A stretch of DNA of 35,398 nucleotides from a virus: positions 1 through 35,398 of IMG/VR virus record IMGVR_UViG_3300035162_000828; one strand, 5' to 3'. Made by a program: the position numbers and the translations under genes. Of the stretch, positions 1 to 35,307 are shown piece after piece; the first letter of the stretch is position 1, and the number at the start of each line of letters is the position of its first letter. Below the pieces are notes generated by a model. That model made no database searches and was not told the origin of the DNA. It worked only from the letters and a program-made list of their open reading frames with translations.

Positions 1-3000
1 GATTCTTAGGATATATTCCGGGAGCTAGGTTTATAAAACCTTTAAGAGCCATTGCTAAATTTACTAGAAACAAATCTATCCCTATGCGTTTTGCAAATTC
101 TGCTACAAAAGGGATGTCTAAACTTTACCCTTCCTTAAAAAGAGATGCTCCTTCAATAGCTAAGATATTTCAAAAAGAAAACAAATTAGGTGACGCTTTG
201 TCTGGTGCTTTTCATTTAGGAGTAGCAAGTGGTGTGTCTGATTGGAGAGGTATTGTAGACGAAGGTATGCCTAGAGCATTAGAATCCATTGGAATGGGTG
301 GTGTTTGGGGTGGTGGTTTTAGAGCGTTAGGTAATACTAAGATGTTTGGTAAAAGATTAACTGTTGCACAGACAGATAGAGCTACTGGTTTACCTATACC
401 AAGTAAACTAGAACCGGGACAGATAGTTGATTACGGTATACGAGCCGCTATAAGTTCAATTACTGCTGGAAAAATGGCTGAGATGGAAGGAGCTCCTACA
501 GAACAACAGATATATGAGTATGCTATGGGAGCCGCATTTAGTTTTAATGACACTCCTCTTCAAACAAGGATAGCAAGAAACGCTATACACGATACAATAA
601 GAAAGAATTACGGATATGAAGAAAACTTTGGTAAGGTTCCAGATGCTGAAGTGCATCCAGAGTATGACACTTGGACACCTGAAATGCAAAAGTTTGTAAA
701 AAAAGATTTTGATGCTTGGTTTGGTCAAGACTCTGAAGTAAAAGCGGCTACATTAATGTTGCAACGACAAGCTATGAAGAACGAAGGGCTGACTCGAGAA
801 GATATTGAAAAGACTATGGACAGGATGGTCAAGAAAAATATAGAAAGTGCTGAGTTTAATCCAGATGGTCAGTTAATAGAGCCTTTATTAAAGGCTGAGA
901 TAAAAAAAGTTAAAGACGTCATTAAAGACAATCCTAATAATGAAGATTATCAGGACCTTGATATGCACATTAACGACCTAGAGAATCTTCCGGGTAGAAT
1001 ATCTGGTGGCAATGGATACGTAGACCAGTACATAACACCAAGAACAAAAGAGACTAGCTCTGTACAAAGACTTGTTCAATCGTTAAAGATATCAAAGAAA
1101 TGGGATTCGTTACACTCAGTAGTCCAAGGAGTTTCTAGACCTAAAGATGGTGCTGTTGAAGAGATGATGGACTACATAAAGAAAGAATACAAGGTTGAGA
1201 ATGTAGACCAAAAAGAAGTAGACTGGTGGAGAAATTGGGCTGAACAAACTAGAAAGAAAAGATTAGTCTTACAAACCTATTACAAAGATGGTGAAGTAGC
1301 TTTTATTGACAAAGGCGTTAGTCCTAGTGGACAGAAAAAAGAGTTAGCTTTTGAACCTCCCGGAATACAGCAGGTATTTGACAACTTACAATCTCTACAC
1401 GGAGAAGATGGTCCTCAAAACTTTTATACTATATCTGATTTCTTTGTTAGGAAAGGCAAAGAGTATGGATTTGGGAGCATAGATAGGAATAGATTACAAT
1501 CTGATTTGAATAAAGAGTCTGACGGTACTGGTCCTCCAGCAAAAGCAGACAATGTAATAAGGCAAATTAAATCTAAAATGGCAACTGACTTAGATAAAGC
1601 TGGATACTATTATGTAGGTGGTAGAGGTGATAAATCTACAATGTACTTTGTAAAGAAAAATCCAATGGTTAAATCTAAAAATAGAACTAAAGATATAGAG
1701 ATGATTGAAAAAGCCTATGAAGAAGCTGGATTTTCTAAAGCTGATTTTAGACAGCACCTACTTAAAATGGGGATTAAGTACAAAGTAAAGTTTGCATCTA
1801 TTGACAACTACTATAAAGATTCCTTGATTAATAACGTATATTATGATATACACAATAACTTTGGTTCTCAAGTAACTAAAGAACAGTTTCCTAAAATGCT
1901 TGTTAAGATGTTTAAAAGCGATGGTTTTATTAAAGACGCTAAAGCTTATAACAAAAGAGCTCAGATATGGTTTAATTCAGGGCAAACTACTAATAGTAAA
2001 GTAGCAAATGAATACTTAAAGAAATTTTATAGAAAATTCAGAAGCGATTACGACTTGCCAAGAGATTGGAAGCCGTTAGAATTTGTTGGAAAAAAGAAAG
2101 ACAAGATAAAGATTAGTATTTGGAATGACGAGCTGATGTCTAAGGATGCCGGGACAAAGCAAGACAGAGAGAATATGAAAAGAGGTGAAAGTTTTGATGG
2201 TGGTATTCCTGCATTACCTGAATTTATATACGCTTTAAACAAGGCTAATGGTCTAACCAATGAGGGTAAGGTTAACAAATCTTTTATCACCTCACCTGAC
2301 GCTAAAAATGGAGCATTACTAGGTAAGTATATGTTTTTTGAAGCCTCTCCTAAACTGCAAAAAGCTATGAGGGAAAAAGGTATCCACGCATTAGCACCAA
2401 AATCCGGTATAAAGCAAATGGGCTATAGGCGTTTTGCTAAAATTAAACTAAATGATTTTAAACCTTTAACACCTGAAGGCAAGAGAAAACTTCGTGTTGA
2501 TTTTGAAGCACAAGTAAGAAAATTAATAGGCGTAAAAGGTCTCTTTAGAAATGCTGAGAATGAAAGGAAAAAACCTTTACCACCAGAAAGAATAGGTGAT
2601 ATTTATTTACTTCCAGAGGCTAGAAAAAAAGGCGTTGGTACTGAGTTTGCTAACTTAGTTGAAGATTATAAAAGGGCATTGGGCTTAAGAGAAATAGATA
2701 TAATGGCTGTTGGTGGCAGAAAAGGTACTGAAGAATTTGACAATGTAGAGTTTTGGAAGAAGCAAGGTTATGAAATTAATGGTAAGAGTCGTGAAGTTAC
2801 TGTAGGTGACAGGGTTTTAAACCCTGAGATAAGAGGTAAAAAAGTAGCAATGGTTCCAATGCAAAAAAAGCTAGACGTTGAAACAGAGAGATACATTCAA
2901 GGTCCTAGTTATGAAATTCCATTAAAAGATATACGGACTGTCTTAAGTGAAGTTACATCTGCTAGAGATATGGTTAGTGCTAAATTTGCTAAACAAATGT

Positions 3001-6000
3001 GGTCTACTATAACTCATTTTGGAAACACAAAAACAGACCCTGCTAAGATAAAAAGTATGGCTGATGAATTAATTAGAGGTTCAGTTGAAGGTGATGAGAC
3101 TATAAATAAAGCTTGGGATTCTCACATAAAGTCTCCTAATAACGTTTCTGAACAAGAAATATTAAAAAATATTGACGATGTATCACTTGATAGATTAATG
3201 AACGCTGTTACTGATACAAACAACGAATCTTTCTCTAGTAAAGTTTACGATAAAGTATTAAAAAGAAACCTAGAAACCACTAGAGAAGGTGCTAAAGAAG
3301 CTGAAGTTATTAAAGATGAGTATTATAAAAGCATAGCTGAAGTAAGTGAGTTTGATAGTATCCTAGATAGAGTGGGTGAGTTATATCCTGAAGGGAACAA
3401 CGGGTTTTATCTCCATAAAATAGCTAAGAATTACAGACAAAATGCTGTTAAGAATTACATAGTAGATAGAATTAGTAGACCAAAGCTAAAGAACGGTATG
3501 AAGGCTAGGATGAGACCTTGGGACCACGGAATGTGGGATGACTTAATTGCTTTAAATGTAAAGCAAGATGAATTTTACCTTGATGAAGGTGCTAGGAAAA
3601 AGAAAATATATGACCCTTATTTTGCCAGAGGATACGAAGAGCTTGGTAAGATATGGGATGAGTATAACAAACCAGAAAATGGTATTTACAAAAACAATCC
3701 TGAAATTGTAAAGGATATACTTGAAGCTGTAGCAATGCGTGTTCCTATGGACTCAATGTCGGGTGCACACGTTTTAAAATTTGCAGGGTTTACTAAAGCT
3801 AAAGGTCAAGGCGTATTGTTACACGGAAGGGTTATGGATGCTTTAGGCGGTGCTGATTTAGATGGAGATAAAGCTTTCATATTCTTTGGTGGAAAGAGCG
3901 GGATGTGGAAAGACTGGAAGGAAATTTATAAAGCTCAAAGAGATGAGTTTATTGATAAAGATAACAATGAGATACCAGCAAAAGACGATTACTCTAAGTC
4001 AAAGTTTGTTGATAAAGATGTAGAAATTGCAAAGTATAATGGCAATCCTATTTCTAAGTATGACCCAAATTTAAGAGCAATTATGAGCGATAAATCTTCA
4101 GATGGTAGAGATACATTAGGAACTGCTGTTACTGCAAGACAGGCTATTGCTTCTGCATATGATACTATTAAATTATCTAAAGGCACTACGTTTGGTCCTG
4201 TTCGTTATATCAAGGGGAAATACCTACCTACCCTACTCCAAGATGGCTCTTATTATTTTCCTGTAAAAACAGAAAAAGGTAAAGTTGTTTACGTTAAACA
4301 AACACCAAAGAGAAGTCTTAACAATTTTAAGCAGTTGTCTAGAGCGGCTATTAATCTTGGTGCTGACCCTATGGATGAAATGGGAATAGTAAGTGGGGAT
4401 GTAATGAAGCAAGTGCTTAACGAATCTGCTTTTACTTACGAATTTGCTAACTATAAAACAGTTGGTAAAAAGAATAAGCAAAGATATGTTTTTTCTAAAG
4501 CTCACGATTTAATGAAAAACAACGATGCTTTAAAACAGATGTTAGCAAATCTTAGCAAGGGTGGTTTGCATCAAAACTATTCTAACGCTAATAACGCTCT
4601 GTACGGAAGAAACTTTCAAACTGGTAAGAAGTATAGCCTTGGTGAAATACAATCAGGTACTAACGATATTAGCTGGGTTCCTGAAGAAGGTAAAAGAAAC
4701 TTATTAAACTTTATTGCTGATGAGTATAAGCAAATACCTTATGAGGATAACTTATTTAAAAGATTAAACGTAGAAGAACTAAACAATTTATACGATTATA
4801 ACAAACGGGAGTTAAGTGACCGACCTGACTTACTGAAACTTTTTAATAGAACAAGTATGGGCACTCGTCAAGGTCCTATGATGAGAGAGATTATAGCTAA
4901 TAAACTTTATTTATTAAAGAATAGAGATATGTTGTCTAAGAACGCTAATAAAGAAAAGTTTTGGGATTTATTTACTCGCAAATGGCATCCTCAATTTGAT
5001 GCAGTAAATGCAGGTAGAAAACAAAATGTGATGGGGACTATACCTTCGCATTTATATGGAGATTTAATAGTTAATAGAAAAAATGCTAGTTACAAAACTA
5101 AAATGCAGTACTTAGAGCATAAGTTAAATCAAGCAGAAGATTTTCTTGTGAACGATTTAAGCGATATGTCTTCTTTAAAGCACATATTATCTGTTAGAGA
5201 TAAGCATAGCATAACGGACAGGGATTTTAAACGTGTTAATACCCTTGTTAATAACGTTAAGAATGATTCCTTCTGGGTTAAGAAAAATCAAAAAGATTTA
5301 AGGCAAGAAATACAGAATGTAGTAGAAGAAACTGGGGATGCTAAAACAGGTGAAGGATTTCTAAAGTTAATTGAAGGTGCAAAGAAAGGTGGGGACTCTG
5401 GTAAAGCTCAGCAGGAAGTAGACAGGCAGATACTTATAGATAAAAAATCTCTTAAGAGTACAAAATTAAATGAATTGTATGATTCAATGCTCCTCGGTAC
5501 GTTTCAACAAACAAATAAAAGACTTCTTAATTACTTAGACAATATGAAGGGTTATAAAACTCCTCCAGAATTAAGGTTCATAGAAGTTCTTAGAAAAGCT
5601 GGACAAAATACAGCCTTACTTAGGTTAGGCTTTCAAAGCCCTAATGTAAAAGACGCTAGTATAAAAGCTCATCTAAACGAATATAACAAGTTGTATAAAG
5701 CTATTGTCCAACCGACTGCAAAAGAAGTTGAAGAAGCTTACACCGCCGCTAAAGGAGATGAGAGCGATAATCCTACTAGGTATCTAAATGATTTAGGTGA
5801 GCCTGTAAGGAACAAAATAATAGAAGCATCAACCCTTGATGAATCAGGGAAGTATTTTATGGACTATATTGAGCCTTGGGCTGGAGGTAAAAAGGCTAAA
5901 ATAAAAGATAGAGATTTATTGCGTACGGTGTATAAATTAAAAAACCATTTAAAACATTACCACAATTTAGACTCAAGAGACTTTAACGGTTTGTTTCGTA

Positions 6001-8873
6001 GTTTGTTCCAAAAGAATATTAATATGGCTAGTAAACAAGATTATGAAAATTTTGAAAAGTTCTTTCAGGATATGAGAGATGGTAGTACTTGGACTAGGTT
6101 TATTAGTTGGGTTAGTGGCAAGAAAGATGAGAGACCGGAAATAGAAAGAAGGTATTGGAATAGATTTCCCGAAGCTAACCAAAGAGAATGGTTAAAGTAT
6201 CCGGGTATGGTTAAATGGAAAGAAGATGTTACGCCTTTTAAAGACAGATTTAACAATAGTATTATGGGTAGGTCCGTAAGACCTACTACTGTTATAGGTG
6301 ATATACAAAATTTTGCTTGGAAAGGTGCTGAATTTGCTCTTTCAACTACGGAAGAAGAAACTAAACTTCTTCAAGATGAGCTGTCTCCTTACACGCAAAC
6401 TAATACAGATGGCTCTGATTTACATAAGATAGCTGTTTCTATTAGAGAAAGGAATATGGTTCATCACATCAAAGAAATAATGGGTGATGACCCTTTACTT
6501 ATGAATAAGCAACGAGCTTATTTAGATAATTACAATGAAGTTCAACCCTTGTATAATAAGTTAAAGAAAAAAATATACGCTATACCTGCAAAAGATGGTG
6601 TAAAAAACCTTACTGGTGAAGAAGTAATTAATAAAATTAACGATATATACACAAGAAAGAATAAAGATATAGGTCAGATTATTAATGGTGATACCGAATG
6701 GTTTGATAACTTTACTAAAGTAGCTTACAATAAAAACGGTGAAATAACTTGGAGAGGTTTAGACAAACTATATAGCAAGTACTTAAGCTACTCTAAAGAA
6801 AAATTTAGATTAGGTCAAAACTTTGAAATAAAGAAGTTTGGTGTTAATGGTATGCAAGAGATAAACAAACTTGTTGCTCTTAAGTTTTCTCTTCCCGTAA
6901 GTAAACGTTCATATAAGTTGTTAAAAGAATACTCTGGCAAACTAGGACTTGGTAAAAAAGTTACTGAATTATGGGATGCTGAGGCTTACTATCCTCACGT
7001 ATCTTTTGATAGAAAGAATATTGATATACTTTTATCTAAGTCTTTAGACGCTATTTTTAAGAATACTAAGTCTACTAAACGAGAAAAACAAGAAGAAGCT
7101 AAGAAGCTAATCTATCAGTCTAAGACTATGACTGGTGACTGGGCACCTAAATCTATTAGTGAAGAGAACTTTGATGCTATGCAAGACGTTTATACAAGAG
7201 CGGCTGGTGATGTAAGACGTAAGGGTGAAAAGAACATACTACCTTTATCCTTTAAACAATCTTATAGCCAATATCAAAGAGAGTCTCATTTACCCGGATG
7301 GTCTCGTGAGGCTGCAGCTTATGAGGCTAACATCAAGAACCTTGTTGATTCGTTCTATAAAGAAAGTATGCTTACTCTATCTAGAGCTCACATTCAAGAG
7401 TTTTATAGAAAGTTTAGAAAACAATCTAATGATAAAGACCTAGCTAACAGATGGTCTAATTTCTTAAAATTATTTACTCAATCTTCTATGGGTTACCCTA
7501 TTGATATACCAGAGTCTGTTCAGAATGACCCTAAGATGAAGATTAGTTATACTCCTTACAAATCTTTTGCAGATAGTAACGTTAGAAAAAGAATTGATTC
7601 TATTAGGAATAAACTTGGAATAACAAGTAAAGCATTAGAAAAGTATGGTGTTTCTAAAGAAGATTCTCAAGATTTAAATCAATACAGTCAGAGTAAGCTC
7701 CAATTTTGGAGTGGACTAGAGGCGAAATGGCAGATGGCATCACTTCTTGCTCATCCTAAGTCAGCTATAACTAACTTATTTGGTGGTCAAGTACATACTG
7801 GTATAAGTGCAGGAGTTGAAAATTTAAAGAACGCTAGAGATATTGATTATCTAAAAACAAATATCAACCCTAATTGGCGTAGTATGAGAGACGTTGAGCA
7901 GTGGGTAGAAAGTTTAGGTATTGTTGAAGAGTTTTTATTACACGAAGCTGGTATGAACAAAGAACTTCGTGGTCGTAGAATGGAAAATTTTGTTAAAGAT
8001 TTCTCATCTAAACTAAAAGGTAAAGATGATTTAAAAGATACAGAATATAAAGCTTTAATTAAAAAGCATAAGATTACAGATAGTATGTGGAATAAAGCAT
8101 CTTGGTTTATGAGAAGACCTGAAAGGACTCTTCGTAGAGATGCTTTTATAGCTCATTATATACAAGCTAAAAAGAATTTTGGTGGTGCCATAAAAGATTA
8201 TGACCACCCTTTTTTAATAGAGATGGGTAGGAGGGGAGTTAAAGCTACACAGTTTTTATACTCTGCTCCTTTTAGACCAATGTGGACTAACAGTGCCTTG
8301 GGTAGGGTAATGTCACGTTTCCAGTTATGGAGTTGGAACTCTGTACGTTTTAGAAAAGACTTATTAAACGAAGCTAAATTGAGAGGTTTTACACCGGGGA
8401 CGCCAGCGTTTAATCGTGCTAAACGATTAGTAACTGCTGATGCAATGATGTATGGCTTATCAGGTATGTTTATGTACAGTCTTTTTGATAACGCACTTCC
8501 AGCTCCTTGGAATTGGTTTCAAGATGCAGCCGCCGCTATGTTTGGTACTGACGAAGAAAGAGAACGTGCGTTCTTTGGTCATCCGGCTGGACCACTATCT
8601 ATTGTTAAACCTCCATTGTTAAGGTTTGACCAACCTATTTACGAAGGATTGATGAATGGTAATTGGGATAAAATGACGGACTATTATCTGTACACACTTC
8701 TCCCGTTTGGTAGAATCATTAAGGATGTAGTTGGTCCGGGTGGAGCTATGGAGAACCCATTTTACGCAGTAGAAAAATTTACAGGAGTACCTTATATACA
8801 AGGTGGTAAGTTCTTACAAGAAGCAAAGAAAGGAGATAAGGATGCTAAAGGTATATTCTCTGACCTTTATTAA
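1..8873 (+). CDS. Giant polyvalent phage protein (5' partial) with RNA polymerase-like DxDGD motif and GNAT segment
   Basis: The reading frame is open from base 3 to the stop at 8871-8873. The first ATG (base 84) is therefore probably internal and the true start lies outside the window. Residues are counted from that ATG (2,929 residues). A GNAT-like segment lies near residues 832-885, with the acetyl-CoA loop pattern R-K-K-G-V-G-T followed by F-W-K-K-Q-G-Y. Residues 1219-1262 hold R-V-P, then L-L-H-G-R, then G-A-D-L-D-G-D (D1258, D1260, D1262). The spacing resembles the beta-prime RNA polymerase stretch R-x-P...H-P...N-A-D-F-D-G-D. The C-terminal ~390 residues look like the conserved tail of large polyvalent phage proteins (motifs such as F-L-Y-S-A-P-F-R-P and R-F-Q-L-W-S-W-N). 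The likely role is an ejected internal virion protein, possibly a virion RNA polymerase. The polymerase call is inference; the giant size and phage origin are solid. Confidence 0.8.
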   Translation, partial: FLGYIPGARFIKPLRAIAKFTRNKSIPMRFANSATKGMSKLYPSLKRDAPSIAKIFQKENKLGDALSGAFHLGVASGVSDWRGIVDEGMPRALESIGMGGVWGGGFRALGNTKMFGKRLTVAQTDRATGLPIPSKLEPGQIVDYGIRAAISSITAGKMAEMEGAPTEQQIYEYAMGAAFSFNDTPLQTRIARNAIHDTIRKNYGYEENFGKVPDAEVHPEYDTWTPEMQKFVKKDFDAWFGQDSEVKAATLMLQRQAMKNEGLTREDIEKTMDRMVKKNIESAEFNPDGQLIEPLLKAEIKKVKDVIKDNPNNEDYQDLDMHINDLENLPGRISGGNGYVDQYITPRTKETSSVQRLVQSLKISKKWDSLHSVVQGVSRPKDGAVEEMMDYIKKEYKVENVDQKEVDWWRNWAEQTRKKRLVLQTYYKDGEVAFIDKGVSPSGQKKELAFEPPGIQQVFDNLQSLHGEDGPQNFYTISDFFVRKGKEYGFGSIDRNRLQSDLNKESDGTGPPAKADNVIRQIKSKMATDLDKAGYYYVGGRGDKSTMYFVKKNPMVKSKNRTKDIEMIEKAYEEAGFSKADFRQHLLKMGIKYKVKFASIDNYYKDSLINNVYYDIHNNFGSQVTKEQFPKMLVKMFKSDGFIKDAKAYNKRAQIWFNSGQTTNSKVANEYLKKFYRKFRSDYDLPRDWKPLEFVGKKKDKIKISIWNDELMSKDAGTKQDRENMKRGESFDGGIPALPEFIYALNKANGLTNEGKVNKSFITSPDAKNGALLGKYMFFEASPKLQKAMREKGIHALAPKSGIKQMGYRRFAKIKLNDFKPLTPEGKRKLRVDFEAQVRKLIGVKGLFRNAENERKKPLPPERIGDIYLLPEARKKGVGTEFANLVEDYKRALGLREIDIMAVGGRKGTEEFDNVEFWKKQGYEINGKSREVTVGDRVLNPEIRGKKVAMVPMQKKLDVETERYIQGPSYEIPLKDIRTVLSEVTSARDMVSAKFAKQMWSTITHFGNTKTDPAKIKSMADELIRGSVEGDETINKAWDSHIKSPNNVSEQEILKNIDDVSLDRLMNAVTDTNNESFSSKVYDKVLKRNLETTREGAKEAEVIKDEYYKSIAEVSEFDSILDRVGELYPEGNNGFYLHKIAKNYRQNAVKNYIVDRISRPKLKNGMKARMRPWDHGMWDDLIALNVKQDEFYLDEGARKKKIYDPYFARGYEELGKIWDEYNKPENGIYKNNPEIVKDILEAVAMRVPMDSMSGAHVLKFAGFTKAKGQGVLLHGRVMDALGGADLDGDKAFIFFGGKSGMWKDWKEIYKAQRDEFIDKDNNEIPAKDDYSKSKFVDKDVEIAKYNGNPISKYDPNLRAIMSDKSSDGRDTLGTAVTARQAIASAYDTIKLSKGTTFGPVRYIKGKYLPTLLQDGSYYFPVKTEKGKVVYVKQTPKRSLNNFKQLSRAAINLGADPMDEMGIVSGDVMKQVLNESAFTYEFANYKTVGKKNKQRYVFSKAHDLMKNNDALKQMLANLSKGGLHQNYSNANNALYGRNFQTGKKYSLGEIQSGTNDISWVPEEGKRNLLNFIADEYKQIPYEDNLFKRLNVEELNNLYDYNKRELSDRPDLLKLFNRTSMGTRQGPMMREIIANKLYLLKNRDMLSKNANKEKFWDLFTRKWHPQFDAVNAGRKQNVMGTIPSHLYGDLIVNRKNASYKTKMQYLEHKLNQAEDFLVNDLSDMSSLKHILSVRDKHSITDRDFKRVNTLVNNVKNDSFWVKKNQKDLRQEIQNVVEETGDAKTGEGFLKLIEGAKKGGDSGKAQQEVDRQILIDKKSLKSTKLNELYDSMLLGTFQQTNKRLLNYLDNMKGYKTPPELRFIEVLRKAGQNTALLRLGFQSPNVKDASIKAHLNEYNKLYKAIVQPTAKEVEEAYTAAKGDESDNPTRYLNDLGEPVRNKIIEASTLDESGKYFMDYIEPWAGGKKAKIKDRDLLRTVYKLKNHLKHYHNLDSRDFNGLFRSLFQKNINMASKQDYENFEKFFQDMRDGSTWTRFISWVSGKKDERPEIERRYWNRFPEANQREWLKYPGMVKWKEDVTPFKDRFNNSIMGRSVRPTTVIGDIQNFAWKGAEFALSTTEEETKLLQDELSPYTQTNTDGSDLHKIAVSIRERNMVHHIKEIMGDDPLLMNKQRAYLDNYNEVQPLYNKLKKKIYAIPAKDGVKNLTGEEVINKINDIYTRKNKDIGQIINGDTEWFDNFTKVAYNKNGEITWRGLDKLYSKYLSYSKEKFRLGQNFEIKKFGVNGMQEINKLVALKFSLPVSKRSYKLLKEYSGKLGLGKKVTELWDAEAYYPHVSFDRKNIDILLSKSLDAIFKNTKSTKREKQEEAKKLIYQSKTMTGDWAPKSISEENFDAMQDVYTRAAGDVRRKGEKNILPLSFKQSYSQYQRESHLPGWSREAAAYEANIKNLVDSFYKESMLTLSRAHIQEFYRKFRKQSNDKDLANRWSNFLKLFTQSSMGYPIDIPESVQNDPKMKISYTPYKSFADSNVRKRIDSIRNKLGITSKALEKYGVSKEDSQDLNQYSQSKLQFWSGLEAKWQMASLLAHPKSAITNLFGGQVHTGISAGVENLKNARDIDYLKTNINPNWRSMRDVEQWVESLGIVEEFLLHEAGMNKELRGRRMENFVKDFSSKLKGKDDLKDTEYKALIKKHKITDSMWNKASWFMRRPERTLRRDAFIAHYIQAKKNFGGAIKDYDHPFLIEMGRRGVKATQFLYSAPFRPMWTNSALGRVMSRFQLWSWNSVRFRKDLLNEAKLRGFTPGTPAFNRAKRLVTADAMMYGLSGMFMYSLFDNALPAPWNWFQDAAAAMFGTDEERERAFFGHPAGPLSIVKPPLLRFDQPIYEGLMNGNWDKMTDYYLYTLLPFGRIIKDVVGPGGAMENPFYAVEKFTGVPYIQGGKFLQEAKKGDKDAKGIFSDLY

Positions 8874-14992: not shown

Positions 14993-15673
14993 TTACACCT
15001 CCGTATTTAGTTTTGGTATTATTTGGTTCCCATATGTTACGATATGAGGACTCAAGCAGGTATAAATATAGTCATAATAACTTAAATTACCAACTATATT
15101 ATACACTTGAGCTACAATCATTGATGCTATAAACTGAGCGGCAAAGACTGTATGTTTCATTGAACACGGGGGCTTTGGTACACTATCTGTTGGAACCCAT
15201 TCATCCATATAGGTAGAATGTGTCCTGCTTGTTTGTGTACTTAATTCTACTGTAGTGGCACCCATACGTCCGTCAATAAAGAAATCCCTGTTAGGTAATT
15301 CTAACCATTTTTCATAGGCATTCTTTCTTGATTCCATATCATCTGTGCATACAATAGTTCTTGGATGAGCAGGTTCAAATGGTAACCATTTACGGGGTAT
15401 TCCCTCAAGCCATTGGTCGTCATCTGAATACATTTGATTTAATGCTCCTGCTGCATCTATTTTACTTTTTCCTACCATATCGAAAGGATAAGCTGTGCTA
15501 CTTAAATTGTGCTCAGCTACACTATCGTCATCCCAGACAATTAGTTCTTTCCATCCCATAATAGTAAGTGATTGTATTACAAAAGACCCAATACCGCCAG
15601 CACCTATGATTGTTATGTCATTAAGTTTCTTTTGGTCAATTAAGTCTTTGTTTCTTAAGAACCTGCTACTCAT
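14993..15673 (-). CDS. E1/ThiF-like adenylyltransferase
   Basis: 226 residues from the ATG preceded by GGAGGAGAG. An upstream in-frame ATG lies within the previous gene and is rejected. Rossmann motif I-G24-A-G-G-I-G29 leads to V-W-D48-D-D, then N56 and a lysine K71 after G-K-S, T-D111-D with R116, I-D-G-R near 134-136, and P-P-C170-S. These are the ATP-binding and adenylation elements of the ThiF/MoeB/E1 superfamily, which activate the C-terminus of ubiquitin-like proteins. No separate catalytic-cysteine or E2 domain is present. C170 is the obvious candidate thiol. It shares the minus-strand arm with a JAB peptidase and a ubiquitin-like protein. Confidence 0.85.
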   Translation of the reverse strand: MSSRFLRNKDLIDQKKLNDITIIGAGGIGSFVIQSLTIMGWKELIVWDDDSVAEHNLSSTAYPFDMVGKSKIDAAGALNQMYSDDDQWLEGIPRKWLPFEPAHPRTIVCTDDMESRKNAYEKWLELPNRDFFIDGRMGATTVELSTQTSRTHSTYMDEWVPTDSVPKPPCSMKHTVFAAQFIASMIVAQVYNIVGNLSYYDYIYTCLSPHIVTYGNQIIPKLNTEV

Positions 15674-15804
15674 TCTCTCCTCCAGCTTGTTGTTACGAAG
15701 TTTACCATTAAAAGAAAGATAAAGAATCCTACTCCTATTAGCACACAACTAACAGATATTAAAAATAGATTAATACTCCATTCCCATAAATCTATTAATA
15801 TCAT
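15670..15804 (-). CDS. Single-pass membrane peptide
   Basis: 44 residues. The ATG overlaps the stop of the upstream gene (ATGA) and its stop overlaps the E1-like start (ATGA). An AGGAG site lies 8 bases upstream. Residues ~11-36 form one hydrophobic helix (L-F-L-I-S-V-S-C-V-L-I-G-V-G-F-F), with a short basic end W-R-R-E. The function is unknown. The tight coupling on both sides argues that it is real. Confidence 0.7.
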   Translation of the reverse strand: MILIDLWEWSINLFLISVSCVLIGVGFFIFLLMVNFVTTSWRRE

Positions 15805-16327: not shown

Positions 16328-17212
16328 TTAAACTAGCCCTAATCGGTCAATATACCAATGCGGCTCTACTTTAGGGTCTATGTTTCTAACCCTTTTTACA
16401 AACTCGTCTTCTGTTATCTCATTGGACTCAAGCTTTTCGTAATCTTCCGCTATCAATTCATTAATTTCCTTTTGGTCTTTAATGTCTGATGATGAATGAG
16501 CACCCAATATAGTTCTGACTGGTTTGATTTCGTTACTTTCGGTTACAACACTTGACATTACGTTTTCACCAAACATATGTGTCTGGTCGTAACGATTCCA
16601 CTTGTAGTTGTAGCCGCTCTTTGAAAAAGCACTTTTTGCCTCTTCTTTCTTCTTTGCTATTAGGTCTGCTTCTACACGCCATTCTGGTTGTGAGGTTTCT
16701 TTATACTGAGTTTTTACTTCTCCCTCTATCATCTGAGAGAATCCAAACTGGTCTTTGTAACCCACTGCTGATACGTATTTCTCTTTTGCACTTGCTACTA
16801 CTGTTGAGAAAAACAAACCATCTTTTGATGACTCTTGATGTATTGCTTCTTCATCTGTTCCACTAAAGAAAGCACCCATCGTATGGTGACTGTGTATAAG
16901 CCCTAGAAAGCATTTACCTAGTCTAGGATGCTTTTTATATACTTCTGGTAATAGCTTACCCAGCTCTTCACCATCTTGTTCTGTGCTTGAGCCATCACCT
17001 AAGTCTATTGGTACGAAATGCTCTAGCTTTACTTCAAGAGGGAAACCATTTTCTGTTTCTTTCGTTATTCTGTACCACGCTGGTCCTGACCATTCAGTGC
17101 TACTAAAACGTCTCAATAGATAGTTGACTTTCTTCACTATAACTGTTGGAACTGTAAGCGTGAAGTCCGCTTCCTGTGTGACTACATTGTGTAATGTTAC
17201 TTTTTCTTTCAT
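16328..17212 (-). CDS. JAMM/JAB-domain metallopeptidase
   Basis: 294 residues. The JAMM motif is complete: H107-S-H109-x7-S117-x2-D120, with an upstream Glu (E40 in T-E-W-S-G) in the place of the catalytic Glu. The domain covers about residues 20-155. The remainder is charged and helical. JAB peptidases cleave isopeptide bonds or process ubiquitin-like precursors, using zinc held by the two His and the Asp. GAGGTAAAGG precedes the ATG. The first 110 bases overlap, out of frame, the end of the upstream 577-codon gene. It shares the arm with an E1-like enzyme and a ubiquitin-like protein. Confidence 0.85.
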   Translation of the reverse strand: MKEKVTLHNVVTQEADFTLTVPTVIVKKVNYLLRRFSSTEWSGPAWYRITKETENGFPLEVKLEHFVPIDLGDGSSTEQDGEELGKLLPEVYKKHPRLGKCFLGLIHSHHTMGAFFSGTDEEAIHQESSKDGLFFSTVVASAKEKYVSAVGYKDQFGFSQMIEGEVKTQYKETSQPEWRVEADLIAKKKEEAKSAFSKSGYNYKWNRYDQTHMFGENVMSSVVTESNEIKPVRTILGAHSSSDIKDQKEINELIAEDYEKLESNEITEDEFVKRVRNIDPKVEPHWYIDRLGLV

Positions 17213-20516: not shown

Positions 20517-20903
20517 TTACATCTCTACTTCTTTAGGTACGGAGTACTTATAGTAGTATTCGATGCATTCGACACCAGATTGTGTTGTTCGTGACGAACC
20601 AAACACTTGCCCTTTAGGGTAATCTACGTCTCCTAGCGTCTCAAGTTCTGGAAAGACTTTAGCTAGGTTTTTGATGCCTTTGGCAGTAAGAAGTTCCGGT
20701 AACGACCCGGCTTCTTCAAAGTTATCCTCCTTTTGGAGGATTACTATACTATGTGGAACTGGAGCCTTACCTGACCTATGGTCATAGTAACGGCTCTGTT
20801 TATTCACGATGGGTCTCCCATCTACTCTCACAGGTTTACCTTGAGTGTCTCTTTCATAGTCCTGAGCGTTATACGCCGAATGTACTTTGAATGTTGTAGC
20901 CAT
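20517..20903 (-). CDS. Hypothetical early protein, first gene of the minus-strand arm
   Basis: 128 residues, no recognised family. The N-terminal third is Tyr/Arg/Asp-rich. There is an E-L-L-T-A-K-G-I-K-N-L-A-K-V-F helix in the middle and an aromatic C-terminus (E-Y-Y-Y-K-Y). AAAGGA lies 9-10 bases before the ATG. It is the gene nearest the divergent region and is separated from the rest of the arm by a terminator, so it is probably an abundant, immediate-early product. Confidence 0.65.
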   Translation of the reverse strand: MATTFKVHSAYNAQDYERDTQGKPVRVDGRPIVNKQSRYYDHRSGKAPVPHSIVILQKEDNFEEAGSLPELLTAKGIKNLAKVFPELETLGDVDYPKGQVFGSSRTTQSGVECIEYYYKYSVPKEVEM

Positions 20904-20929
20904 AATGATTTATCCTTTATTGGTTCAAC

Positions 20930-21116
20930 CTATGAGTTCATCTCATAGATTATTGGACATAGTCCAAAACTAACAGGGGATGTTGACAGGAGGTGGAGGC
21001 TCGAGCGATTAGCGAGACGGTTGAGCAACCGGCAGGGGGCTGACGTATTGTGAGGAGGGACGATACTCAATGCGGTTAGACCCCCACGGGGGTGAAAACC
21101 GACCCACCGGGTCAAC
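20930..21116 (+). ncRNA. GC-rich, hairpin-dense element in the divergent region
   Basis: At least six local hairpins: 20930-20948 (7 bp), 20953-20967 (6 bp, 3-base loop), 21018-21031 (5 bp), 21045-21066 (7 bp with a U-G pair on plus, loop GAGGAGGG), 21073-21101 (outer CGGTT/AACCG around ACCCC/GGGGT) and 21101-21113 (5 bp). GTTGAC at 20982-20987 can also pair with GTCAAC at 21111-21116. The plus strand pairs better at 21045-21066. Base composition contrasts sharply with the AT-rich surroundings. It may be a structured RNA, a regulatory leader or part of a replication origin. No coding frame is credible. Confidence 0.5.
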
Positions 21117-21138
21117 TAGTAAAGCACGTACTCCCAAA

Positions 21139-21198
21139 GTATTTCTATTTTTGAAATATTTTATAATTTTTTTCTAGTTTTTTTGTGTAATTTTTTGT
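21139..21198. other. AT-rich tract next to the structured block
   Basis: Sixty bases almost free of G and C, dominated by T runs on the plus strand. They lie between the hairpin block and the first plus-strand ORF. It could be a duplex-unwinding element, or the U-rich end of a transcript from the hairpin block. A TATAAT at 21162-21167 has no matching -35 box. Confidence 0.4.
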
Positions 21199-21432
21199 AT
21201 GAATATTATAATAATTTTAATCATTTCAGGACTTTCATTAAGCTTTGTAGTAGAAGAACCTACTATCTCCGAAGGGGAGCATTCAGTATTTGACGACATA
21301 TTTGACCAAGACAGCACATACCATCAATATCTAGATATTTGTAACGGTGAGAACTGGTGTTGGAGACACAATATGTGGGAGAATGTTAGGATAGTAAACC
21401 CTAGCAGAGTACGTAGAAAAGACGAAGAATAG
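21199..21432 (+). CDS. Small putative membrane or secreted protein
   Basis: 77 residues. The N-terminal ~17 residues are strongly hydrophobic (I-I-I-I-L-I-I-S-G-L-S-L). Then comes an acidic stretch and a Cys/Trp patch (C-N-G-E-N-W-C-W-R-H), ending in a basic R-R-K. No Shine-Dalgarno is visible, so the start is uncertain. It is the first plus-strand ORF after the divergent region. Confidence 0.45.
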   Translation: MNIIIILIISGLSLSFVVEEPTISEGEHSVFDDIFDQDSTYHQYLDICNGENWCWRHNMWENVRIVNPSRVRRKDEE

Positions 21433-21505
21433 GCTAATCGGGTATCTTGTTTATATCGTGAGGTTTAAGCTACTCCTCTTAAAGTAAATCATAACTATTG
21501 TAACT

Positions 21506-21533
21506 TTACTAAAACGGTTTTACATTTTAGTAA
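21506..21533 (+). other. Perfect inverted repeat upstream of the nuclease gene
   Basis: TTACTAAAA at 21506-21514 pairs with TTTTAGTAA at 21525-21533 around a 10-base loop. It lies in the 148-base gap before the nuclease gene. It may be an operator, or a weak terminator for the small ORF upstream. Confidence 0.4.
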
Positions 21534-21580
21534 TATTTGTTAGTTACACATAACGATTTATCAAGGGGTAGTTTTCGTAA

Positions 21581-31668: not shown

Positions 31669-33036
31669 ATGGCAAAAGTATGGAAAAAACTCCAGCGGTC
31701 AGATGCAGATTACACAGGAAATGTAACTGGTACTGTCGATGGAGAAACAGCGGCAAATATTAAAACAAAAGCAATAGCTGGTGCGGCATCAAAAGTAGTT
31801 ACAGATGCGGCATTTACAAATAACGTACTGAATGTAGCCAATGCAAACGATGCGTTAAAAAATGCAAATACAACAGCAACTGATGTTGGCTTAGGGAATG
31901 TAACTAATAAAAGTGAAGCTCAGTTATTAGCAGGTAATTTAACAGGTACTATCGGTGGTACTGCTATAGCAACAGTCAAATCTGGTGCCGCTTCAGGGGC
32001 AACAGCGAATCAGGATTCAACTTCTACTATTTTAAGTGGAACTTTAACAGGTAACGTAAGTGGAACAGTAGACGGAGTTGCCGTAGGTACAATTAAAGCA
32101 GGAGCGGCTTCTGGTGCAACAGCTAACCAAGATAGTACATCTACTATACTTGGAGGCAATTTAACTGGTCAAGTTGGCGGAACAGCAGTTGCAACGATTA
32201 AATCCGGTGCGGCAAGTGGTGCTACTGCAAACCAAGATTCAACAAGTACTATATTAGGTGGGAATCTAACTGGTTCGGTTAGTGGTACAGCAGTCGCAAC
32301 TATAAAGAGTGGTGCGGCTTCAGGTGCGTTAATAGCTCCAGCTTTTGACACATCTGGTTCTTCTCCAATAATTAAGGTAGCTAACGCTCCATCAACAATG
32401 ATAAACTCGAATACGACAGCTTCGGATGTTGGACTAGGAAATGTAACTAACGCAAGTCAAGCTACTATTCAATCAGCTACTCTTAGTGCGGCTACTAAAG
32501 CTGATGTCGGTTTAAGTGCTGTTGATAATACAGCGGATAGTGCTAAACCAGTATCGACTGCACAAGCAACTTCAATAGCATTGAGAGCACCTAAAGCTAA
32601 TCCTACTTTTACAGGTACAGTAAGTGGAGTTAGTAAAACTCACGTTGGATTAGGCAGTGTCATTGACCAAGCAATTACCGTTGTTGGTGAAAAACTCAAG
32701 TTTGGTGGCGTAGCCCAAACAATTAATGCTGATAAAGTTGGTGGTAAAACAGTAGAACAGACTGAAGCATCAGCCTCTAGTACTGCACAATTAGCAATTA
32801 TTGGTGGTGCACCGGGAGCATTAAACACTCTTGATGAATTAGCCGCCGCTTTAGGTGACGATGCAAATTATGCTACAGCAACTACTAACGCATTAGCAAC
32901 TAAAGGCAAAGCACCAATGATTCTAGTAGCAGAAGATGTTGATGGAGACTCGACTTACACCAATGACCCAGCAAGTGAAGTTGTTGGACAGATTGGAGTG
33001 TTTGGTGGTAATCAATATATAGTGGTAGACATCTAA
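31669..33036 (+). CDS. Tail fibre protein 1
   Basis: 455 residues. The N-terminal anchor M-A-K-V-W-K-K-L-Q-R-S-D is shared with fibre 2. Residues 105-218 hold a tandem repeat (35-39 residues per unit). D-V-G-L-G-N-V-T-N pieces, common in phage fibres, occur at 72 and 252. The C-terminus is Gly/Ala-rich and ends in a small beta-like domain. There is no catalytic motif. Probable host-binding or spacer fibre. Confidence 0.8.
   Translation: MAKVWKKLQRSDADYTGNVTGTVDGETAANIKTKAIAGAASKVVTDAAFTNNVLNVANANDALKNANTTATDVGLGNVTNKSEAQLLAGNLTGTIGGTAIATVKSGAASGATANQDSTSTILSGTLTGNVSGTVDGVAVGTIKAGAASGATANQDSTSTILGGNLTGQVGGTAVATIKSGAASGATANQDSTSTILGGNLTGSVSGTAVATIKSGAASGALIAPAFDTSGSSPIIKVANAPSTMINSNTTASDVGLGNVTNASQATIQSATLSAATKADVGLSAVDNTADSAKPVSTAQATSIALRAPKANPTFTGTVSGVSKTHVGLGSVIDQAITVVGEKLKFGGVAQTINADKVGGKTVEQTEASASSTAQLAIIGGAPGALNTLDELAAALGDDANYATATTNALATKGKAPMILVAEDVDGDSTYTNDPASEVVGQIGVFGGNQYIVVDI
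31981..32326 (+). repeat. Tandem repeat in fibre 1
   Basis: Three full units and the start of a fourth, at protein positions 105, 144, 179 and 214. Each starts G-A-A-S-G-A and, in the full units, contains N-Q-D-S-T-S-T-I-L...L-T-G. Codons differ between units, so the repeat is old or under protein-level selection, not a recent expansion. A related unit occurs once near the N-terminus of fibre 2. Confidence 0.8.
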
Positions 33037-33775: not shown

Positions 33776-33971
33776 ATGCACAACCCAAGAATTAGAAGGA
33801 ATTTGTAACTTATTAGAAAAAGTTAACGTAGGGGTTAAAGATGGTATGTGGGTGTATGAGATGTATAAAAAATTTGCAAAGACATTCGAAGAAGCCGCTG
33901 AAGCAGACCCTGACTGGGTTCAGACTGAAGAAGATGAAAAAGGTGCCGGAGAAGGTATAGTCAATGGCTAA
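33747..33971 (+). CDS. Small acidic helical protein
   Basis: 74 residues. AAGGAG precedes the ATG inside the previous gene. The C-terminus is strongly acidic (E-E-A-A-E-A-D-P-D-W-V-Q-T-E-E-D-E). It overlaps the start of fibre 2 by 8 bases. Unknown; possibly a fibre-assembly helper by position. Confidence 0.6.
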   Translation: MEKQKLKTVKCTTQELEGICNLLEKVNVGVKDGMWVYEMYKKFAKTFEEAAEADPDWVQTEEDEKGAGEGIVNG

Positions 33972-35307
33972 AGTTTGGAAGAAATTACAGAGAAGTGACG
34001 CCCCCTTTACTGGAGACGTTACAGGTACTATTAATGGTGCTTCTGCTTCTGTAATTAAAAGTGGTTCTGCATTAGGTGCTTCATCTAATCAGGATTCTAC
34101 ATCGACCATTCTTGCTGGTACTTTTACAGGTAATGTAACTGGAAATATAGACGGTGTTTCAGCCGCTACTATAAAGACTAAAGCAGAAGCCGGTTCCGAC
34201 GCTAAGAGTGCTGTAGATGGAAACAGTGCTATCACTATGGTAGGTGGTTCATTAAGCATTGGTACTATTGCTAGTGGGGTTTATCCATTTTCTGTAGATA
34301 GTACAGGCAATTTAAAAATTAAGAATGACGAGTTTCAAGCTCTTGCAGATGGTACTGTTAACTGTAAAGGTAGCTTTACTATCAATCAAGATGCTTCTAG
34401 TAACTCTAAAATAGAATTAGCTGGTTCAAGTAGTGGTACTGCTACAGTATTAGTAAATGGTGCTAACCCTACATTTGACCTTGGTGGAGCTACTCCACTT
34501 GGAACTGCTACATTACACCTTAAAAGAAACTTAACAAGTAACCAATCTAGGGTTCAATTTAGAACAGGTAGTTCTGGTTCAGAGTTTACTATAGGTAACT
34601 CTAATAATACCGGACTAACAACACAATATGCTATACATACAGGACCATTATGGAGTTCTGGTACTGTAGCTGAAAGAGCTTTATCTTTTGATGCAGATGG
34701 TAAGATGGGTATGTATTCTAATAGTAAGACTGTTGCAGGATTTACTTTTGGTAGTGATGGTACTAATAAACACGTTTACGTTAAAAATGGTGGACTTGGT
34801 GTTGGTGTAGCTAACACAACTGATGGAACCTTAGAAACATCCGGTGACACAACAGTTGGTGGAGACCTTGATGTTACTGGTACAGCTTTAACTGGTTGGC
34901 ATACAAAAGATGTTATATGGGTAATGCCTACTGATTTTTATGTTAACGATGACCAAGCTTATTATAATATGGCGTTAGTAGATAGTGGTGGTGCTTTAAA
35001 ACCAATGACTACTTCTTTAGAAGCTTATTGTAATATCCCAATTCCAAGTGGATATAAGGTAACTCATTTTAGAGTTAATGGTACAGCTAGTGTTGGTATA
35101 GCGGCTTATTACAGTGATTGCACAACTGGTGGTCAAACTAGTTGTCAGCCACCTACTTCTATATACACCAATACTTTATACGCTACAAACCCTAGTAGTG
35201 GTATAGCGGCTAATGATACTAGTGGTAGATATTTTATATTGAAATGGTCCTGTTCATCAACAAGTCATCAGCTTTATGGCGGATACTTAAAAATAGCGAA
35301 AATATAA
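33964..35307 (+). CDS. Tail fibre protein 2
   Basis: 447 residues. The N-terminus (M-A-K-V-W-K-K-L-Q-R-S-D, then T-G-D-V-T-G-T) is a paralogue of fibre 1, with one repeat unit (N-Q-D-S-T-S-T-I-L). The middle is beta-rich with V-D-S-T-G-N-L-K pieces. The last ~135 residues form a Cys/aromatic-containing domain, distinct from fibre 1 and a candidate receptor-binding tip. Confidence 0.8.
   Translation: MAKVWKKLQRSDAPFTGDVTGTINGASASVIKSGSALGASSNQDSTSTILAGTFTGNVTGNIDGVSAATIKTKAEAGSDAKSAVDGNSAITMVGGSLSIGTIASGVYPFSVDSTGNLKIKNDEFQALADGTVNCKGSFTINQDASSNSKIELAGSSSGTATVLVNGANPTFDLGGATPLGTATLHLKRNLTSNQSRVQFRTGSSGSEFTIGNSNNTGLTTQYAIHTGPLWSSGTVAERALSFDADGKMGMYSNSKTVAGFTFGSDGTNKHVYVKNGGLGVGVANTTDGTLETSGDTTVGGDLDVTGTALTGWHTKDVIWVMPTDFYVNDDQAYYNMALVDSGGALKPMTTSLEAYCNIPIPSGYKVTHFRVNGTASVGIAAYYSDCTTGGQTSCQPPTSIYTNTLYATNPSSGIAANDTSGRYFILKWSCSSTSHQLYGGYLKIAKI

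Follow-up and report, generated by a model that had tools for sequence, protein, structure and literature searches.

Only a small number of non-coding phage RNAs are known to adopt elaborate and strongly conserved folds; the ones examined in detail, the phi29 pRNA and the put RNAs, revealed unexpected mechanisms. The put RNAs of phage HK022 act in cis in antitermination and comprise about 65 nt folded into two hairpins. 6S RNA is a rod-like molecule of 150-200 nt. The promoters of the phage N4 virion RNA polymerase, a giant enzyme of the T7-like type, are hairpins with a 5-7 bp stem and a 3-base loop, and sequence contacts are made in both loop and stem. Here, we describe a block of hairpins in the genome of an uncultured marine tailed phage, represented by a 35,398-base IMG/VR virus record that was analysed over its whole length (the window). 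The joint explanation of our observations is probably that the block encodes, on the plus strand, a structured RNA that is not translated and belongs to a new family; this RNA may bind protein at the early/late junction.

The block is located between divergent genes (20517-20903 on the minus strand and 21199-21432 on the plus strand), in agreement with the original prediction that both arms of the genome start here. Profile matches in the window place a primase-helicase and a Sak4-like annealing protein in the leftward replication arm, and TerL, the portal and the major head protein in the rightward structural arm. This gene content points to an early left arm and a late right arm. Near each other in the replication arm, at 14993-15748 and 16328-17212, are also genes for two proteins, one ThiF/E1-like (Pfam E 3e-11) and one Prok-JAB-like (E 4e-5, narrowly missing the Pfam cut-off), a pair that suggests a ubiquitin-like conjugation or deconjugation module in the phage. 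In the tail region, the proteins encoded at 31669-33036 and 33964-35307 start with near-identical segments (MAKVWKKLQRSDA), which may represent the duplication of an N-terminal attachment domain.

With a G+C content of 0.582, compared to 0.368 for the genome, positions 20972-21136 rank 7th among the 35,233 windows of 165 bases. The plus-strand fold of 20925-21145 has an energy of -74.9 kcal/mol (z -3.3, with none of 200 shuffles as good), while the minus strand gives z -0.6. As other 180-base windows of the stretch reach z -4 to -7, single-sequence folding of the block is modest; it is covariation in the relatives that places its structure beyond chance. One strongly structured region is the 180-base window 20701-20880, with z -7.0 for the plus strand and -5.0 for the minus strand, which falls within the coding part of the left neighbour.

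DNA comparison with isolated phages gave only chance matches in A/T-rich sequence, and neither an exact pattern using the 20-mer around 21080 nor a search of viral contigs with short peptides of the left gene (20517-20903) gave a match. The RNA pattern was not found in bacterial genomes. Relatives of TerL were likewise not found in bacterial genomes, and hence no host is assigned. Relatives were collected via TerL, yielding 80 loci, several of which are identical or near-identical, so that independent lineages are fewer than loci. An nhmmer profile built from the window and nine near relatives matches the block in 54 of the 80 terminase loci, always on the TerL strand. The block is present in all 47 loci that have at least 2.1 kb upstream of TerL, on the same strand and 1.0-2.6 kb before the gene, and in every locus without it the available sequence stops less than 2.1 kb before TerL. 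With a covariance model, each of 16 long contigs shows a single copy. There are 47 distinct core sequences, the window's own included, and the sequence varies widely among them with the fold retained. A coding reading (the minus-strand ORF 20930-21115 or a short plus-strand frame from an ATG near 21070) was rejected: indels in the relatives break the frame, and the block is thus non-coding. On its left, the relatives usually have a protein of 100-135 aa, belonging to one of two sequence families and divergent to the RNA. The sequence comparison gives good support to the block being an obligate, single-copy RNA gene at the early/late junction of this uncultured marine phage group.

An obligate, single-copy RNA at 1.0-2.6 kb from the TerL gene in all loci could also be a packaging or virion RNA like the phi29 pRNA. 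The window's TerL matches large-terminase families and not the phi29-type ATPase, and no structural resemblance to pRNA is evident, making this reading very unlikely.

Searches of Rfam 15 with the window and 13 relatives returned no match at gathering thresholds, and permissive thresholds gave only chance-level matches (E 0.5 or worse). No tRNA or tmRNA was found. In the literature on phage or structured RNAs, where subscription papers were sparsely covered, no report of this RNA was found. Judged by these comparisons, the RNA family is a previously undescribed one that no catalogued family matches.

Two alignments were used to assess the fold. A1 is a MAFFT alignment of 10 sequences, with no fitting to structure. 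A7 contains 46 sequences aligned to a covariance model and is biased towards that model by construction; 24% of its cells are unpaired. Since MAFFT misaligns the helices of diverged sequences, covariance models were grown from the near clade. In the predicted fold, P1-P7 make up a long rod with interruptions, the small side hairpin P8 forms a three-way junction at the rod's base, and the hairpin P0 is at the 5' side (Table 1). When relatives were folded singly, the same rod was obtained in most cases.

Table 1 Features of the RNA locus and its flanks in the window.
Feature	Position	Strand	Remarks
H1 hairpin, CTATGAG-TTCAT-CTCATAG, 7 bp	20930-20948	+	window's clade plus L014, L017, L019
P0 hairpin, TTGGAC-ATA-GTCCAA	20953-20967	+	directly 5' of core
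Core of structured RNA, CTAACAGGGG to GTACTCCC	20970-21135	+	nhmmer and covariance-model homologues
P1 closing helix, GGGG / TCCC	20976-20979 / 21132-21135	+	97.8% of cells paired, 46 sequences
P2, GTTGAC / GTCAAC	20982-20987 / 21111-21116	+	6/6 pairs with double changes in A7
P3, GGTGG / CCACC	20992-20996 / 21104-21108	+	5/5 pairs with double changes in A7
P4, CGGTT / AACCG	21018-21022 / 21097-21101	+	paired in 94% (A1) and 86% (A7)
P5a, CCG / CGG	21029-21031 / 21087-21089	+	moderate support, 46-66% of cells paired
P5b, GGGGG / CCCCC	21035-21039 / 21081-21085	+	conserved pairing (A1, A7)
P6, CTGAC / GTTAG	21040-21044 / 21075-21079	+	A1, A7
P7 apical hairpin, loop containing GAGGGACGA	21047-21071	+	A1, A7
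P8 side hairpin, GTA-AAGCACG-TAC	21119-21131	+	95.7% of cells paired in A7
3' tail	21136-21160	+	nearly all relatives read ATTCTACNGNAATTTTTNAAA; window has AAAGTATTTCTATTTTTGAAA instead
Rest of A/T-rich tract	21161-21198	none	ends at start of ORF 21199-21432
Late-promoter candidate, CTTAAAGTAAATCATAACTA then TTGTAA-17-TACATT	21478-21526	+	conserved, single copy in window

The covariation score in A1 is 0.381, against 0.124 or less for slid partners, and was reached in none of 500 shuffles; double changes occur in 32 of 55 pairs. The corresponding A7 score is 0.311 against at most 0.088, likewise reached in none of 500 shuffles, with 376 double-change cells compared to 154 in shuffles. The covariation search that had been proposed alongside the structured-RNA suggestion thus finds compensatory changes in excess of both shuffled and slid controls, and the suggestion itself is borne out by the conserved fold, these changes and a plus-strand G.U bias (below). 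Compensatory changes are found at every pair of P2, P3 and P0; P2 of locus L020, for example, reads TGCACC/GGTGCA. In P4, 4 of 5 pairs show double changes and the 3' side carries the conserved GTGAAAAC. All 7 pairs of H1 are changed on both sides in A1 (94% of cells paired, no G.U), with a free stem sequence and a loop, TTCAT or TGAATT/AGAATT, that is retained in the clade. P1 and P8 vary little and are barely probed by covariation. P1 shows C to U changes that are retained as G.U among the 46 sequences; P8 usually reads GTATATCACGTAC in relatives and, being nearly invariant, is beyond the covariation test.

The plus fold is the more stable in 41 of 47 sequences, with a mean of -61.8 against -53.9 for the minus fold. 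Counting G.U pairs over aligned cells was equivocal owing to misaligned stretches in the alignments, and a strand-neutral count was used instead, in which single interruptions were scored in Watson-Crick-only helices common to both strands. On the plus strand these amount to 31 G.U and 5 A.C, where composition expects 1:1 (one-sided binomial p about 6e-6 assuming independence, which related sequences violate). This excess indicates that the RNA corresponds to the plus strand, read rightward.

The original prediction had correctly placed CCCCC at 21081-21085, a G-run at 21088-21092, GGGGG at 21035-21039, GTC at 21111-21113 and a hairpin at 20953-20967, and had proposed a conformational switch from competing helices. 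The relatives do not bear out the switch: only the pairing of 21081-21085 with 21035-21039 is conserved, the alternative with 21088-21092 being possible in near relatives only, as other clades read GCC, GCG or GGA there.

Besides the core, the RNA probably includes H1 and P0 at its 5' side and a tail rich in U at its 3' side, and would be about 165-215 bases long between its predicted ends. ATTCTACNGNAATTTTT is common to nearly all relatives directly 3' of the core and is lacking in the window, a reason for caution against giving the motif an essential role. When the phage genome was examined for segments with which the tail might pair, a single 12-base A/T-rich chance match was obtained. It is likely, from the pattern of conservation, that the freely varying helices form a scaffold, and that the conserved nucleotides at junctions or in unpaired positions (GCAGGGG, GTGAAAAC, GGGTACGG, the P8 loop and the tail) present a binding surface.

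The tail could alternatively contain a leftward early promoter (minus-strand TAGAAT) that makes an early leader across the block, with which the plus RNA pairs and which it regulates. In line with such an antisense pair, plus-strand ATTCTAC varies only where A2 and T6 of the minus-strand hexamer stay intact, and the mean promoter score at the tail is 4.29 against a null maximum of 3.48. There is, however, no -35 sequence, the window itself is without the motif, and the plus-strand G.U bias and the conserved unpaired bases are left unexplained. We regard an antisense function as improbable.

The 60 bases behind the core were originally called nearly pure A/T; they are the A/T maximum of the window at 87-90%, so the wording was slightly strong. 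An origin had also been suggested, in which the transcript would prime replication (by an R-loop or in a T7-like manner) and the A/T tract would be the unwinding region. The tract is indeed an extreme of the window, the cumulative GC skew has its minimum at the block, and the scan of the window's replication genes brought up neither an initiator nor a DNA polymerase. However, in other clades the tract is conserved over about 25 bases only, no iterons were found, and the skew changes sign together with gene direction, which makes the GC-skew check uninformative on an origin. The origin proposal thus lacks support and has a low probability.

A scan of the window found no recognisable promoter for the RNA and no intrinsic terminator behind it; across loci, a weak average -10-like signal is present 62-82 bases before GGGG. 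Further downstream, a conserved single-copy element extends over 21478-21560, in which CTTAAAGTAAATNATAACTA precedes a sigma-70-like TTGTAA-17-TACATT that spans 21498-21526 and whose distance behind the RNA varies among relatives. The element has the appearance of the sole main promoter of the late genes, combined with a site for an activator. Between RNA and promoter, a small membrane-protein-like ORF is present in 27 of 47 distinct sequences and absent from many others; the RNA persists in relatives without ORF 21199. The window has GTGTAATTTTTTGTATG at the ATG of ORF 21199-21432, which is kept in relatives having the ORF. The small membrane ORF is without a Shine-Dalgarno sequence, and relatives share TGTAATTTTTTTTATG at its start codon (21180-21201), which could be the -10 element of a leaderless mRNA. 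The notion that the junction is the main control region is plausible, with early genes diverging leftward and the conserved sigma-70-like late promoter at 21478-21526.

These flanks bear on whether the RNA, as the 5' portion of a long mRNA running rightward through the small membrane ORF and the late genes, acts in cis by antitermination or attenuation. Such elements sit near the starts of phage transcripts, and the RNA is on the same strand as the late operon and just upstream of it in all loci, with no terminator found behind it. Against this, the ORF directly after the RNA in the window is missing from many relatives, and a conserved sigma-70-like promoter intervenes between the RNA and the late genes, suggesting that the RNA is not simply a late-operon leader. 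A cis-acting leader is unlikely on this evidence, and we infer that the RNA is transcribed, and separately from the late mRNA.

The RNA is located at the point of divergence of early and late transcription, and the phages that have it may encode a polymerase of their own as part of a giant protein. This protein (2929 aa, 84-8873) is conserved in relatives and carries an invariant motif, RVPMD..SGA...GFTG.G...H.R...LGGADLDGDK, with one T to K exception pair at the G after GFT. The motif resembles the catalytic loop of two-barrel RNA polymerases (phi14:2 gp66: RIPN...GSDFDIDK). Pfam and PHROG returned no polymerase match for this protein, and profile searches with it gave nothing significant; it is a candidate virion RNA polymerase, as a lead only. 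In P23-45, a virion RNA polymerase is fused to a tail protein and injected (PMC10770324). The likeness to the P23-45 virion polymerase and to crAss-like phi14:2 gp66 is that of a giant phage protein with a DxDGD/DxDxDK motif, the similarity being at motif level only with no significant profile match. The match to the giant protein is split in two in L124 (349-2757) by a large insertion after GGADLDGDK. Separately, a match to cpYpsA, of the YpsA/SLOG family, was obtained for one sequence in alignment A4 (E 1.4e-25).

The giant protein also bears on a resemblance, noted originally from size, of hairpins 20953-20967 and 21101-21113 to the N4 promoters, and on a reading in which the DNA hairpins themselves would be promoters for a virion RNA polymerase. 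The GGADLDGDK motif is RNA-polymerase-like, and the first hairpin, P0, occupies a fixed position at which almost all relatives have a hairpin of differing sequence, with 3-4 base loops in many. The resemblance of P0 is nonetheless in size only, as its loops and stems are without a common sequence or any N4-like sequence feature, and relatives include some G.U pairs in it. The second hairpin is not conserved, and its strands belong to P2, P3 and P4. The motif, furthermore, is of the two-barrel type and not the T7-like type of N4. We consider hairpin promoters highly improbable.

The reading we favour, possible if somewhat doubtful, is a protein-binding RNA that acts on transcription at the early/late junction. 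As an independent transcript from the early or middle phase of infection, the RNA would bind one of the proteins that carry out transcription, close to where the RNA itself is synthesised, and might thereby modulate the switch from early to late, much as phage put RNAs or 6S RNA do. A role in transcription is favoured because of the fixed junction position, the place upstream of a separate late promoter and the conserved unpaired nucleotides at the basal junction; the mechanism is proposed from position and analogy. More broadly, we tentatively propose an undescribed class of phage RNA, obligate in a whole group of uncultured marine phages, which would bind the machinery of either transcription or packaging and govern the early-to-late change in gene expression. 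With a defined sequence, structure and covariance model, the RNA can now be sought in ocean transcriptomes.

Compared to described systems, the RNA shares with the phi29 pRNA that it is an obligate phage RNA near packaging genes, but it has no Rfam match, another topology and another type of terminase. P0 is similar to the N4 hairpin promoters in stem size and loop length but, unlike these, has no conserved stem or loop sequence; hairpin 21101-21113 is not conserved, and no T7-like polymerase was found. The likeness to 6S RNA consists in the rod shape and a length of 150-200 nt, whereas a single large central bubble and an Rfam match are both lacking and the P8 three-way junction is present at the base. 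Like the put RNAs of HK022, it is a structured phage RNA near divergent phage promoters; no similarity to these was found, the RNA described here being about 170 nt in length, folded into a long rod, and followed by a separate promoter before the late genes.
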